A DNA stretch of 32,559 bases from positions 1 to 32,559 of the forward strand of contig SVGO01000015.1 of assembly GCA_015056305.1 (NCBI GenBank), given 5' to 3'. The stretch comes from Clostridiales bacterium (lineage in GTDB: Bacteria; Bacillota; Clostridia; Christensenellales; Aristaeellaceae). The number at the start of each line of letters is the position of its first letter. Position 1 is the stretch's first letter. The notes beneath the pieces are model-generated. The model saw only the letters and a list, made by a program, of their open reading frames with translations. It had not been told where the DNA came from and did not search any database. A program made the translations under genes and the position numbers. This document shows positions 1,768 to 6,969 of the stretch, one piece after another.

Positions 1768-2778
1768 TTGGTTGAGGAAATGAGTCAGGCTCCGCTCAGC
1801 GGAGCGATCCAGAATCTGTTCGGCGCAGGCGACGAGAATGTGCGTCTGCTTGAGCATCTGCTTGACGTGCATATTGCGCTGCGCAGCGGCGAGATCGTGG
1901 TCGAGGGCGAGAAGGAAGAGGCCGTTGATACCGCCGAACGCGTGCTGGGCAGCCTGGGCGCGCTCTGTGCTCGTAGTGAGCGCGTGGATACGGCGCTGGT
2001 GCAGTATGCGGTGAATCTGGCGATGAAGGACGAGCTCGATCAGCTCGACACCCTGTTCAAGGAGGTGGTCGCCACTACCTTCCGCGGCAGGCCGATCCGC
2101 TGCAAGACGCTCGGTCAGCGCGACTATGTGAAGGCGATCAAGAAAAACACGCTCACGCTGGGCATCGGTCCTGCCGGTACGGGCAAGACGTATCTGGCAA
2201 TGGCGATGGCCGTCTCCGCGCTCAAGAGCAAGGAGGTCGAGCGCATCGTGCTCACGCGCCCTGCGGTCGAGGCGGGCGAGAAGCTGGGCTTTCTGCCCGG
2301 CGATCTGAATCAGAAGGTCGATCCGTATCTGCGTCCGCTCTATGACGCGATGTTCGAGATGCTCGGTGCGGAAACGTGCCAGCGCATGCAGGAACGCGGC
2401 GTCATCGAGGTGGCCCCGCTGGCATATATGCGCGGCCGCACGCTTTCCGATGCGTTCATTATTCTGGACGAGGCACAAAATACCACCCAGGAGCAGATGA
2501 AGATGTTCCTGACGCGCATGGGTTTCAGGTCCAAGATTGTCGTGACGGGCGATCCGTCCCAGATCGACCTGCCGCGCGGCAAGAAGAGCGGCCTGATCGA
2601 GGCGGTGGAGGTGCTTTCCGGCGTGCCGGATATCAGTGTGCAGCGCCTGACGCATCAGGACGTCGTCCGTCATGAGCTTGTGCAGGCGATTGTGCGCGCA
2701 TACGATGCGCACGCAAGGCGCGCAAAGGAGGAAATCAACCATGGAAGAAACGGCGAAGAAGAGCACGACGTGGACTGA
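1768..2778 (+). CDS. phoH: PhoH-family ATPase
   Basis: A cytoplasmic P-loop NTPase of the PhoH family, often linked to RNA metabolism; its precise substrate is not established. The protein has an N-terminal KH-like region (GAGDENVRLLEHLLDV), Walker A GPAGTGKT near residue 134, and Walker B/motif II IILDEAQN near residue 233. VVTGDPSQIDLP follows, as in the RecD/helicase-I-like core. The frame is open far upstream. I choose TTG 1768 because GGGAGG (1753-1758) lies nine bases before it, it gives the usual family length (336 aa), and earlier starts fall at or near the proposed promoter. ATG 1780 is an alternative with a poorly spaced Shine-Dalgarno. The 3' end overlaps the next gene by 38 bases. 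Confidence 0.92.
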   Translation: MVEEMSQAPLSGAIQNLFGAGDENVRLLEHLLDVHIALRSGEIVVEGEKEEAVDTAERVLGSLGALCARSERVDTALVQYAVNLAMKDELDQLDTLFKEVVATTFRGRPIRCKTLGQRDYVKAIKKNTLTLGIGPAGTGKTYLAMAMAVSALKSKEVERIVLTRPAVEAGEKLGFLPGDLNQKVDPYLRPLYDAMFEMLGAETCQRMQERGVIEVAPLAYMRGRTLSDAFIILDEAQNTTQEQMKMFLTRMGFRSKIVVTGDPSQIDLPRGKKSGLIEAVEVLSGVPDISVQRLTHQDVVRHELVQAIVRAYDAHARRAKEEINHGRNGEEEHDVD

Positions 2779-5149
2779 CAGCGTCAGCGCGCGTGTCAAG
2801 CAGGCGCTGTTTTTGCTGCTGGTCTATGCGGCGCTGCTGGTAATCTGCTTCCTGGCGATCTCGCCGGAGCAGTATGATCTGAGCGTGGGCGACGTTTCGC
2901 CCCAGACGATCACGGCCAGCCGCGATATCGTCGACGAGATCACCACCGAGCGCCGCCGCCAGATGGCGTCCGCCGCCGTATCCCCGGTCTATTTCAAGGA
3001 CGACAGCGTGTCCGATACCGTCATGGCCGATATGGAAGAGGCTTTCTCGGAGCTGCGCGCCGTGCGCGAGCTGGGCACACAGATCCGCAGTGCCTGGACG
3101 GACGACAGTCAGTTCTTCAGCGACGAGGATTATGCGCAGGCGCAGAATATGCTCAGCCGGATCAAGCTGAGCAACTATCAGCTGCGCACGGTGATGAACA
3201 CAGCCGAGCGCGATTTTGAAACGCTCTATCAGAGTGTCACATCGGCCACGCGCACGACGCTGGTCTCCACCATCACTGAAGGCCAGATCAACGATGCGAT
3301 CAACAATATCCAGCAGATCGTCGCCTACAATACGCGCACCGATCTGTGGTACAATGTGGCGATTCCCACGCTGCGCACATGCCTGCAGCCTAATATGCTC
3401 ATTGACCAGGAGGCCACGGAGGAGAATCGCCAGCGTGCATATGACGCCGTTGAACCCACGGTTTATAAGCAGGATCAGAACATCGTCATGAAGGGCGACC
3501 GCGTCAGCTCAGAGCAGATTGCCGTGCTTGAGGCGCTGGGGCTCTTGGGCGACAGCTTCGACGCCAGACCCTATGTCGGTGTTGCAGTGATCCTTGCAAT
3601 CATCCTGGCGGCGACGTATCTGTTTATCCTGCTCTTTGCGCCGCAGATGCTCCACGCCGGCAAGAATGCGTTCGTCATGCTCATCGCTGCGGTCATCACG
3701 CTGATCCTCAGCCTGATTTTCGGCCAGTATGTCAGCGTGAACGCCATGCCTGTGATGCTCTCGGCGATGCTGGTGGTTAATCTTCTGGGCGCGCGTCCGG
3801 CATATGTGCTCAATTTTGCCATCTCGATGCTCATCACCTTCCTGACGGTGACCGGCCCGGGACTGGAAACCTCGCAGATGCTCAGCGTGCTGCTGATGAC
3901 CAATATCGGCGGCATGCTCTCGATCTACCTGATGCGCCGCAATCCGGCGCGCGTGTATGTGTTCGTCACCGGCATGATCGTCGGTGCGGCGGATGTGCTG
4001 GTGCTTGTGTGCGTCAGCGCGCTCATGTCCGGCAGCATGGACGGTGTGCTTGGCGGCTCGATGTATGCGATGCTGGGCGCGCTGGTTGCGTCGATCATGT
4101 GCGTGGGTCTTCAGCCGATTCTGGAGGCGGCGTTCAATCTGGTGACGCCGGCCAAGCTCATCGAGCTTTCCAATCCGAATCAGCCGCTGCTCCGCCGCCT
4201 GATGATCGAAACCCCGGGCACGTATCATCACTCCATGATCGTGGCCAATCTGGCGGAGGCTGCTGCAGAAGCTATTGGCGCGGATGCGGTGCTTACCCGC
4301 GTGGGCGCGTATTATCATGACATCGGCAAACTTGTGCGCCCGCTGTATTTCAAGGAGAATCAGATCGGCGAGAATCCGCACGACAAGACCGACCCGCGCG
4401 TGTCCACGGCGATCCTCACCGAGCATACCCGCGACGGCGTGGAGCTTGCGCGCAAGCATCACCTGCCGGAGCAGATCATCGATATGATCCGCCAGCATCA
4501 CGGCGATACGGCGGCGATGTATTTCTACGCCAAGACGGTCAAGCAGATGGGCGAGGAAAACGTCGACATCGACGACTTCCGCTATGACGGCCCGAAGCCG
4601 CAGACCGCCGAGGCGGCGATTCTGATGCTCTCCGATACGGTCGAAGCAGCTGTGCGTTCCATTCCGGAGCCGACACAGGAGAAGATCTCCGCGATGATCA
4701 CCAAGCTCGTTCGCGGCAAGATGGAGGATGGACAGCTCGACGAATGTACGCTGACCTTCCGCGACATCGGCAAGATCTGCAAGGCGTATCAGAATGTGCT
4801 CAAGGGCGTGTTCCATGAGCGCATCGAGTATCCGTCGGTTGATCTCAACCGCCCCAAGCGCCAGCATCATGGCCGCGGCGGCAGAAAACCCGCGCAGCAG
4901 AAGCAGACGAATAAGCCGCTTGATAACAGGGAAAACAAGCCTGCTGCCCAAAAGGCACAGCCTAAGCCGGCTGCACCCAAGGGCGCCCAGCATAAGCAGG
5001 AGGCTAAGCCGGCCGCGAAGCCCGAACAGAAGCAGGATGCAAAGCCTACTGCGAAGACAGAGGCGAAGCCCGAGGCCAGGCCCGCGGTCAACCCAGAAGC
5101 CAAGCCCGAAGTCAAAAATGAAAGCGGGCATATGGAGGCCAAGAAATGA
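2741..5149 (+). CDS. pgpH: 7TM-HD c-di-AMP phosphodiesterase (PgpH/YqfF)
   Basis: An 802-residue polytopic membrane protein of the 7TMR-HD family; PgpH members hydrolyse cyclic di-AMP. One membrane helix at about 20-42 is followed by an extracellular 7TMR-HDED region (about 45-280). A cluster of seven hydrophobic helices spans about 285-475. A cytoplasmic HD domain follows, with the metal-binding HH of TYHHSMI near 496 and HD of YYHDIGK near 526. ATG 2741 has AGGAGG (2726-2731) nine bases upstream inside phoH. The last ~100 residues are an unusual low-complexity tail rich in Lys, Pro, Ala and Gln, with repeated KPEA/KPAA-type units. Its stop overlaps the start of the next gene (ATGA), indicating translational coupling. 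Confidence 0.93.
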   Translation: MEETAKKSTTWTDSVSARVKQALFLLLVYAALLVICFLAISPEQYDLSVGDVSPQTITASRDIVDEITTERRRQMASAAVSPVYFKDDSVSDTVMADMEEAFSELRAVRELGTQIRSAWTDDSQFFSDEDYAQAQNMLSRIKLSNYQLRTVMNTAERDFETLYQSVTSATRTTLVSTITEGQINDAINNIQQIVAYNTRTDLWYNVAIPTLRTCLQPNMLIDQEATEENRQRAYDAVEPTVYKQDQNIVMKGDRVSSEQIAVLEALGLLGDSFDARPYVGVAVILAIILAATYLFILLFAPQMLHAGKNAFVMLIAAVITLILSLIFGQYVSVNAMPVMLSAMLVVNLLGARPAYVLNFAISMLITFLTVTGPGLETSQMLSVLLMTNIGGMLSIYLMRRNPARVYVFVTGMIVGAADVLVLVCVSALMSGSMDGVLGGSMYAMLGALVASIMCVGLQPILEAAFNLVTPAKLIELSNPNQPLLRRLMIETPGTYHHSMIVANLAEAAAEAIGADAVLTRVGAYYHDIGKLVRPLYFKENQIGENPHDKTDPRVSTAILTEHTRDGVELARKHHLPEQIIDMIRQHHGDTAAMYFYAKTVKQMGEENVDIDDFRYDGPKPQTAEAAILMLSDTVEAAVRSIPEPTQEKISAMITKLVRGKMEDGQLDECTLTFRDIGKICKAYQNVLKGVFHERIEYPSVDLNRPKRQHHGRGGRKPAQQKQTNKPLDNRENKPAAQKAQPKPAAPKGAQHKQEAKPAAKPEQKQDAKPTAKTEAKPEARPAVNPEAKPEVKNESGHMEAKK

Positions 5150-6051
5150 AACCGGAAATCATTCTGGAAATCGAGGACGAGCTCGGTCAGCTGGACGATG
5201 ACGCCAGAGCGCTGATGCATCGCTGCTTTGAAAGCGCGAAGACGACCGAGGGCGTACAGACGCCGCTGGCAGTGTTTGTGCGCATCGTGGACGACGAGGA
5301 GATCCGCCGGATCAACCGCGAGCAGCGCAGCAAGGACATGTCTACGGACGTGCTCTCCTTCCCGACGGTCAATTACCCGCAGGGAAAGACCGCCAGAGAC
5401 TGCGAAAAGCTCCTCAGGCGAGAATATGACCCGGAGCTTGGCGCAAGCCTTCTGGGCGATATCATCATCTCTATGGACCATGTGCGCGTGCAGGCGGCTG
5501 AGTATGGCCATAGCGTGCGCCGGGAAACGGGTTATCTGCTCACGCACGGCCTGTTTCACCTGATGGGCTATGATCATATGACACAGACCGATAAGCCTGT
5601 GATGCGCGCCATGGAAGAGCGCGCGCTTGCTGCGATCGGCCTGACGAGGGAGGAAAATGCCGTGACCGACGAGAAGCTGCTGGGGATGGCTGTGGGCATG
5701 CTTGCCTATTCTTATGTGCCGTATTCCCATTATGCGGTCGGCGCGGCGCTTCTGGCCCAAGATGGCCGCGTGTTCACCGGCTGCAATGTGGAGAACGCCG
5801 CCTACGGCAATACCATGTGCGCAGAGCGCACGGCGCTGTTCAAGGCGGTCAGCGAGGGCGCGCAGGCGTTCGAGGCGATCGCCATCGCGGCTCGGGGCTC
5901 CGCGCCGTTCCCGTGCGGCGCCTGCCGCCAGTCGCTCTACGAGTTTGCGCCAGATCTGCGCGTGATGGTCACCTGGGATGGCAATGTCCGCAAGACCACG
6001 CTGCGTCAGCTCCTGCCGGAGGGCTTCGGTCCCTCGTCCCTGGATATCTAA
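5146..6051 (+). CDS. ybeY-cdd: fused endoribonuclease YbeY - cytidine deaminase
   Basis: A 301-residue two-domain protein. Residues 1 to ~165 are YbeY, a zinc endoribonuclease for 16S rRNA 3'-end maturation and ribosome quality control; the zinc ligands are visible as H134-x3-H138-x5-H144. Residues ~173-301 are a complete tetrameric-type cytidine deaminase, which converts (deoxy)cytidine to (deoxy)uridine. It has CNVENAAYGN, C225-A-E227 and P-C257-G-A-C260-R-Q, so all three zinc cysteines and the catalytic Glu are present. In Bacillus these are separate genes with dgkA between them; here dgkA is absent and the reading frame runs through. The ATG overlaps the pgpH stop, with GGAGG 7 bases upstream. 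An internal Shine-Dalgarno/GTG lies exactly at the junction, so free deaminase may also be made. Confidence 0.92.
   Translation: MKPEIILEIEDELGQLDDDARALMHRCFESAKTTEGVQTPLAVFVRIVDDEEIRRINREQRSKDMSTDVLSFPTVNYPQGKTARDCEKLLRREYDPELGASLLGDIIISMDHVRVQAAEYGHSVRRETGYLLTHGLFHLMGYDHMTQTDKPVMRAMEERALAAIGLTREENAVTDEKLLGMAVGMLAYSYVPYSHYAVGAALLAQDGRVFTGCNVENAAYGNTMCAERTALFKAVSEGAQAFEAIAIAARGSAPFPCGACRQSLYEFAPDLRVMVTWDGNVRKTTLRQLLPEGFGPSSLDI
5646..5664 (+). promoter_or_regulatory. internal ribosome binding site and GTG at ybeY/cdd junction
   Basis: GAGGGAGG (5646-5653) is followed, after eight bases, by an in-frame GTG (5662). Starting there gives a 129-residue protein, the usual size of a free-standing cytidine deaminase. 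This is seen in the sequence. Whether ribosomes use it is inference; it may be a relic of the time when cdd was a separate gene. Confidence 0.5.
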
Positions 6052-6075: not shown

Positions 6076-6969
6076 ATGAAAGAAAACAACTTCCTTTCGG
6101 GCTTTGCCGCGATCGTCGGCCGCCCGAATGTCGGCAAGTCCACAATGATGAACGCGATGGTTGGCGAGAAGGTTGCTATCGTGTCCAATCGCCCCCAGAC
6201 CACGCGCAACCGCATCATGGGCGTGGCGACTGAGAAGGATCATCAGATCGTCTTCCTCGACACGCCGGGCCTGCATAAGCCGCGCACCAAGCTGGGCGAG
6301 TATATGGTTCGATCTGTGCAGGACGCCATGGACGGCATCGATGTGCTGCTTGTGCTCGTGGATGTGAGCGACGTCGGTCCGCAGGATCGTGCGATTGTCG
6401 AGGAGATGGCGGCGCGCAATGTGAAGAAGATCCTCGTGCTCAATAAGACGGATATCGTCGACGAGGCGAAGCTGATGGCCACCATTCAGTCCTTCTCCGC
6501 GGAGAAATACGATGCGATCGTTCCGATCAGCGCGCGCACGGGCAAGAATATGGCGGAGCTGCGCAAGCTCATCGTTTCCTTCCTGCCGCAGGGCCCGAAG
6601 TATTTCCCGGACGACATGATGACCGATCAGCCGGAACGTCTGATCTGCGCGGAGATCATCCGCGAGAAGGCGCTGCTGCATCTGCGCGAGGAAGTGCCGC
6701 ACGGCATCGGCGTGGAGATGATGCGCATCCAGAAGCTGAGCGATAACATGACCGAGATCCACGCGACGATCTACTGCGAGCGCGCCAGCCATAAGGGTAT
6801 CATCATCGGCAAACAGGGCGCGATGCTGCGCACCATCGGCGCGGAATCCCGCAGGGATATCGAAAACCTGCTCGGCACCCGAATCAACCTGCAGCTGTGG
6901 GTCAAGGTCCGCGAGGACTGGCGCAACCGCATGGACGATCTGCGCACGCTGGGCTATGAGAATATGTAA
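6076..6969 (+). CDS. era: GTPase Era
   Basis: A 297-residue essential GTPase that binds the 3' end of 16S rRNA during 30S assembly. The G domain has G1 GRPNVGKST (residues 15-23), the Q-TTRN switch region, G3 DTPG near 62 and G4 NKTD near 123. The C-terminal KH domain carries GIIIGKQGAMLRTIG near 238-252. The length is standard. The start is ATG 6076 with a modest AGAGG upstream. It lies 24 bases after the ybeY-cdd gene, which also acts in 16S rRNA maturation. recO, commonly next in Bacillus, is missing; a terminator follows instead. Confidence 0.97.
   Translation: MKENNFLSGFAAIVGRPNVGKSTMMNAMVGEKVAIVSNRPQTTRNRIMGVATEKDHQIVFLDTPGLHKPRTKLGEYMVRSVQDAMDGIDVLLVLVDVSDVGPQDRAIVEEMAARNVKKILVLNKTDIVDEAKLMATIQSFSAEKYDAIVPISARTGKNMAELRKLIVSFLPQGPKYFPDDMMTDQPERLICAEIIREKALLHLREEVPHGIGVEMMRIQKLSDNMTEIHATIYCERASHKGIIIGKQGAMLRTIGAESRRDIENLLGTRINLQLWVKVREDWRNRMDDLRTLGYENM

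Follow-up and report, generated by a model that had tools for sequence, protein, structure and literature searches.

In Staphylococcus aureus, ybeY, dgkA, cdd and era follow each other in this order in one operon (PMC6738653), and from Clostridia proteins are known in which YbeY is fused to Era (PMC6738653, PMC10582724). The YbeY of E. coli interacts with Era and S11 (PMC5101352). In S. aureus, Era showed a weak interaction with YbeY and none with Cdd or DgkA (PMC6738653), which speaks against an old direct contact between cytidine deaminase (CDA) and Era. From Caulobacter, 75 in-frame internal starts that give two isoforms have been reported (PMC4117421), and translationally coupled neighbouring genes are treated in the GeneTack survey (PMC3711429). 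No account of a YbeY-CDA fusion was found in the literature searched.

The locus described here lies in a stretch of 32,559 nucleotides from a Clostridiales bacterium of the family Aristaeellaceae, and we call this whole stretch the window. Around era it has the neighbours of the S. aureus operon, arranged alike, but there the genes are separate and dgkA stands between ybeY and cdd. The original prediction had given the order ybeY, dgkA, cdd before era for Bacillus; we can point to it in S. aureus. Like the YbeY-Era fusions, the window gene comes from Clostridia and places YbeY N-terminal to the product of an era-cluster neighbour, but the partner is CDA, a metabolic enzyme and not a ribosome GTPase, and an internal start is kept. 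As in the Caulobacter genes one frame carries two starts, of which the second would give a short C-terminal product; unlike theirs, this predicted product is a whole enzyme that has its own gene in close relatives. As in coupled genes, stop and start lie close together in the split relatives, whereas in the window the two frames have merged. The tetrameric CDA of the B. subtilis type, e.g. 1jtk, which we take to be a tetramer, agrees with the window CDA in its catalytic motifs and in the tetramer-type family model (a sequence match only) and differs in that the window CDA bears an N-terminal YbeY. Fusion of YbeY to a neighbour, namely Era, and in-frame internal starts are thus already known; what is new, as far as the literature was searched, is that the partner is CDA, that this join has been gained and lost repeatedly, and that an inner start is conserved. 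The features on which the rest of the text depends are the following.

5146..6051, forward strand: ybeY and cdd fused in one reading frame of 301 aa, free of internal stops and frameshifts
5194..5631, forward strand: YbeY domain, residues 17-162 (Pfam PF02130, E 5e-39, 133.6 vs 25; TIGR00043)
5545..5577, forward strand: YbeY zinc motif HGLFHLMGYDH (H134, H138, H144)
5646..5653, forward strand: SD-like GAGGGAGG in the coding frame, 8 nt upstream of the GTG, pairing energy -11.9 kcal/mol
5662..5664, forward strand: GTG in frame (codon 173), where a free CDA of 129 aa may start
5662..6048, forward strand: CDA part, residues 173-301 (TIGR01354, PF00383), tetrameric type
5663..5665, forward strand: TGA in another frame, inside GTGA, like the stop/start overlaps of some split relatives
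5818..5826, forward strand: CDA catalytic C-A-E (C225, E227), from motif reading and alignment
5911-5925, forward strand: second CDA zinc motif P-C-G-A-C, from motif reading and alignment
6076..6969, forward strand: era (GTPase and KH domain), the downstream neighbour, SD pairing -6.7 kcal/mol

The fusion at 5146-6051 is genuine. As the original prediction held, the frame is continuous; its 301 codons carry two domains that both match their models: the YbeY part scores 126.6 bits with TIGR00043 of NCBIfam (cut-off 45), and the CDA part 138.2 bits with TIGR01354, the tetrameric CDA model (NCBIfam, cut-off 113.65), while dCMP_cyt_deam_1 (Pfam PF00383) matches residues 174-270 with E 7.7e-18. The catalytic and zinc residues, said to be intact, do not vary among 71 aligned fused proteins, neither H134, H138, H144 and R61 of YbeY nor C225, E227, C257, C260, N214 and E216 of CDA; their roles we assume to be those of the corresponding residues in E. 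coli YbeY and B. subtilis CDA. The first part is accordingly a predicted YbeY endoribonuclease, with family models, the zinc motif H-x3-H-x5-H and the conserved arginine all present, and the second a predicted tetrameric cytidine deaminase, with its family model, C-A-E and P-C-x-x-C. At the junction the YbeY tail IGLTREE is followed by two residues and then by the CDA start VTDEKLL. Upstream the fused gene adjoins the gene of a 7TM-HD protein, whose stop its own ATG overlaps (ATGA, 5146-5149), and downstream it adjoins era. The genome itself (93% complete, 159 contigs) contains a single match to the fused protein, which is the only source of YbeY found there.

The best reading of this locus, and in our judgement the probable one, is a gene with two products. 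Ribosomes starting at ATG 5146 would make the 301-aa YbeY-CDA protein, others starting at GTG 5662 behind its strong internal SD would make an additional free CDA of 129 aa, and a single mRNA of the ybeY-cdd-era cluster would serve for both.

The fusion is far from peculiar to the window. In a sample of 250 genomes of the family, the window's own included, where states were read from match rows and then recounted, 233 had a match to the fused protein and 17 had none. Of the 250, 191 are fused, so that the outcome named as refuting the original prediction, a lack of relatives with the same fusion, did not occur. Of the 191, 187 gave a single unbroken match; the other four (G029, G040, G080 and G222), with matches that cross the junction but are partial or frameshifted, were counted as fused. 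Of the remaining genomes with a match, 22 had neighbouring genes separated by a stop or by a change of frame, one (G042) had them about 790 bases apart, 11 more had them apart, and eight could not be assigned a state. In the order sample of 297 genomes, the 26 family members with a match were all fused and one member had no match; among the matches listed for the 270 genomes outside the family, one is fused (G258) and four (G282, G283, G288 and G501) cover both genes with stop codons between. The phylum sample of 299 genomes holds at least three fused genomes besides the window's own (G605, G779 and G792), and among its listed matches TAA separates the two genes in G560. One candidate, G307 (match 21-221), was rejected, being a YbeY with a different short tail. 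Since fused genomes also occur outside the family, YbeY and CDA seem to have been joined on several occasions; in this one family the fused form is the usual state.

The picture is more mixed within the genus. Of its 29 genomes, nine are fused, 14 have the genes adjacent but separate, and three are without the locus; in two (G116 and G206) era follows ybeY and CDA is on another contig, and in G818 the junction is in frame and CDA is broken shortly after its beginning. A relative (L031/L109) that is 87% identical has its fusion at the same position and in the same frame, and L002 and L003, from other genomes, are likewise fused at this position. In 13 of the 14 split genomes the frames of ybeY and cdd are shifted, cdd lying in relative frame 2 in 12 of them and in frame 1 in G213, while in G165 cdd is in frame behind a TAA. 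The CDA of the split genomes starts at or near the same place, preceded by an SD, and in five of them (G244, G238, G151, G827 and G177) stop and start overlap as ATGA, the ATG in G177 being two codons ahead of the aligned position. The junction of Ca. Ventricola gallistercoris (L044), which is split, is identical to that of G151/L120. From an AGG codon to the start there are 11 nt in the split G135 as compared with 12 nt in the window, a difference of one base. Judged by these arrangements, the fusion is labile within the genus.

Trees of YbeY, CDA and Era were built from 80 and 206 protein rows and from 19 DNA rows. They place the window in a subclade of seven rows, of which four form two fused pairs and the other three are split, within a wider split clade; support for this subclade is 100 in the 80-row tree and 91/98 in the 19-row DNA tree, and Era alone does not resolve it. 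A single fused clade in the subclade, although the tree prefers the two pairs, is not rejected by the AU test (p 0.0505 for three genes, 0.097 for era, 0.0505 for ybeY and cda together). The ancestor of the subclade comes out as not fused under three rate models (P fused 0.00, 0.08 and 0.28), and the window's own fusion is probably a recent and local event. At the base of the family, the two-rate model fits best (lnL -52.5) and favours a split ancestor with repeated fusions, whereas the equal-rates model (lnL -60.4) favours a fused one; both concern 193 family rows from fetched loci, a set enriched for fused loci, in which G818 and G222 were coded as fused in spite of a frameshift inside CDA. 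We infer that adjacent ybeY and cdd fuse and split repeatedly by small indels at the junction. The history first proposed, loss of dgkA followed by one simple read-through fusion, is plausible in its first half and, in the form given, finds no support in its second: genes have joined and separated more than once, fused and split forms stand side by side among close relatives, and the event in the window was probably a local one. The DgkA family was not found in the genome itself, and of 81 sampled genomes of the order (this one included) 10 have it and in 71 it was not found. Since it is so rare, and since in other families of the order ybeY still adjoins dgkA (L243) and dgkA still adjoins CDA (L241), it is plausible that dgkA was lost before the fusion.

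The original prediction also placed GAGGGAGG and an in-frame GTG (5646-5664) between the domains, giving a free deaminase of normal size. Both are found there, GAGGGAGG at 5646-5653 and GTG at 5662-5664, which leaves 129 aa. The window gene has both a start codon and an SD at the internal position, and GTG 5662 aligns with the cdd start position of most split relatives. With the anti-SD tail the internal GTG has a duplex energy of -11.9 kcal/mol, compared with -9.3 for the ATG of ybeY and -6.7 for that of era, and a scan of the 24 other in-frame ATG, GTG and TTG codons of the gene gives -6.9 as the strongest value. The probability of being unpaired averages 0.57 at the GTG, at most 0.56 at the 24 other starts, 0.80 at the ybeY ATG and 0.53 at the era ATG; the folding of the junction RNA was in no way unusual (z 1.23). 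Against synonymous shuffles the window SD stands at 0.021, in a hand-picked set of 14 lineages that is biased, having been chosen for SD.

The same position was surveyed in 157 clean fused genes of the family as fetched, with G818 and G222 left out; the fused genes fetched come from 39 genera. Elsewhere in these genes there are 2690 in-frame start codons, of which 4.8% reach -9; this serves as the background. All nine clean fused genes of the genus have ATG, GTG or TTG at the CDA start with an SD of -9.3 or stronger. In a group of other genera (g2, g4, g6, g17, g18, g19, g32, g36, g38, g39, g45, g47, g49 and g50) a start is present in 21 of 38 fused genes, in 15 of the 21 with an SD of at most -9. 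In the remaining genera it is present in 21 of 110 (three of the 21 with such an SD) and absent from 89, and from this absence we take free CDA to be dispensable there.

These fused genes bear on the strongest of the rival explanations, in which the two activities are mostly separate proteins: the internal start would give nearly all of the CDA, and the CDA tail on YbeY would be a neutral passenger, derived from neighbouring genes whose frames happened to agree. The alternation of fused and split forms among close relatives is what a nearly neutral join would produce, and in two genomes of the order, G325 and G335, the partner of YbeY is instead Era, with CDA absent between them, so that YbeY may be prone to join the next gene along, CDA being no special case. 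However, many fused genes in the 39 genera have no internal start and the CDA motifs are invariant in the 71 aligned proteins, and the fused CDA must therefore work there. We regard a purely passive tail as unlikely, if still worth weighing.

A second rival makes the internal start the passive element: only the 301-aa protein would be made, and SD and GTG would be a decaying remnant of a recent two-gene state. The window's fusion seems recent and its own SD could therefore be such a relic, which counts against the two-product reading; the subclade ancestor was, as noted, inferred not to be fused, the start has been lost in many fused genera, and the SD overlaps the codons of TREE, residues common in the genus. 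Against this, of the three starts at the locus the internal one has the strongest SD, and in four diverged fused clades (the L007 clade of the genus, g6, g18 with g32, and g19; mean pairwise identity at 4-fold sites 0.33-0.63) SD and start stay while the linker residues vary. The two residues before Met in g6 are PP, SS, DP, KP, TS and FP, with CGGAGGA and ATG kept in six of six; in g18 and g32 the codons under the SD spell E-G-E, R-G-D or K-G-G instead of E-E; one gene each of g32 and g2 has GTG where its sisters have ATG; and the start of the L007 clade is TTG, a codon that accounts for 2.9% of those for Leu in the sampled genes of the genus. From member to member the junction is retained in 58 of 58 comparisons in these four clades and in 72 of 72 in six site-keeping clades, which were picked with the site in view, as against 4 of 33 for chance SD and start sites in the same genes of the six. 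Over all 18 clades tried, the figures are 74 of 90 for the junction and 288 of 863 for controls, whose retention is high where residues are fixed (g17, g4 and g20); in g31 the junction site is kept in just two of 18 comparisons.

A synonymous-shuffle test with the amino acids fixed, applied to all 157 fused genes and so free of clade choice, shows SDs stronger than expected in the 22 genes with ATG (median percentile 0.10) and no bias in the 106 without a start (0.54), with per-genus p values of 0.0017 for ATG and 0.018 for any start. As a class, the 25 GTG genes have no such bias (median percentile 0.46), and a tree-based independent-pairs test of SD and start together (12 pairs) was not significant. 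The restriction of the bias to genes that keep ATG argues against a relic. Conservation beyond protein constraint is seen in fused relatives of part of the family and is lost in most other genera, so that the claim of a ribosome site kept at the junction has gained good comparative support. In the genus and several other genera, ribosomes probably initiate at the internal start and selection probably maintains it, whereas elsewhere it is lost; it looks like more than a relic, and we infer that it is in use in the window organism as well; a mere remnant there is improbable to us.

Very improbable is programmed frameshifting that would join the frames in the split relatives, so that all members make the fused protein: an upstream SD can stimulate frameshifting, and cdd lies in one relative frame in 12 of the 14 split forms, but in all 14 split genes of the genus a slippery X XXY YYZ heptamer is absent within 45 nt before the ybeY stop, and a start codon behind an SD is the simpler route. 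A base missed between two genes in a draft genome of 159 contigs, where the spacing in the window and in a split relative differs by a single base, is scarcely credible, and sequencing error an unlikely cause, considering the fusions at the same place in other genomes (L031/L109, L002, L003) and their wide spread in the family.

If the gene does have two products, free and fused chains would co-assemble into tetramers, and their proportion would set the number of YbeY arms per CDA tetramer. Mixed tetramers are to be expected because the CDA model is of the tetrameric type. Whether the internal site works as a stoichiometry dial, with zero to four YbeY arms on mixed tetramers and nucleoside salvage physically tied to 16S rRNA maturation, is a more speculative step, which we put forward tentatively and think rather doubtful.

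In a family of gut Clostridia, an RNase of ribosome maturation and an enzyme of nucleoside recycling seem usually to be one protein, and their genes would fuse and split at a point where a single base of spacing makes the difference, with the ribosome-binding site staying in place. A family in which CDA is joined, separate, or joined with or without a start of its own is a natural experiment on the physical link behind a gene neighbourhood. The dial, if true, would offer a functional reason for something so far unexplained, that cdd persistently lies close to ybeY and era.

The ybeY part of the fused gene is preceded by a gene whose product carries a long C-terminal tail of low complexity, rich in K, P, A and E:

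window 2672-5149, 7TM-HD protein gene, upstream neighbour of ybeY

The TGA of this gene shares bases with the ATG of ybeY in an ATGA, an overlap of the type that is also found at the junction of the separate ybeY and cdd genes in some relatives.

In other families of the order, ybeY adjoins dgkA at one locus (L243, genome G314) and dgkA adjoins the cytidine deaminase (CDA) gene at another (L241, G252), and these adjacencies are remnants of the old gene order. YbeY-CDA fusions are also present in other families (L061 in G605, L062 in G779, L063 in G792 and L070 in G258), and are apparently independent in origin. Two members of the same genus as the window have era directly after ybeY (L124, G116; L126, G206), and in both genomes a more distant CDA, with 52% identity, is located on a separate contig. 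At L244 (G818:C334) the ybeY-CDA frame is fused, but broken just within the CDA part, and the break is either natural or a sequence error.

A single frame joins YbeY to Era in two genomes from the same order as the window (L246, G335; L247, G325), and at L248 (G311) the two are neighbours, yet separate. The YbeY of L245 (G307) carries a C-terminal tail without the CDA zinc motifs, which may be a degenerate CDA remnant. Judged by eye, the protein of L249 (G527) resembles a pyrimidine-nucleoside phosphorylase and has a CDA joined at its C-terminal end, a further nucleoside-salvage fusion of CDA within the phylum.
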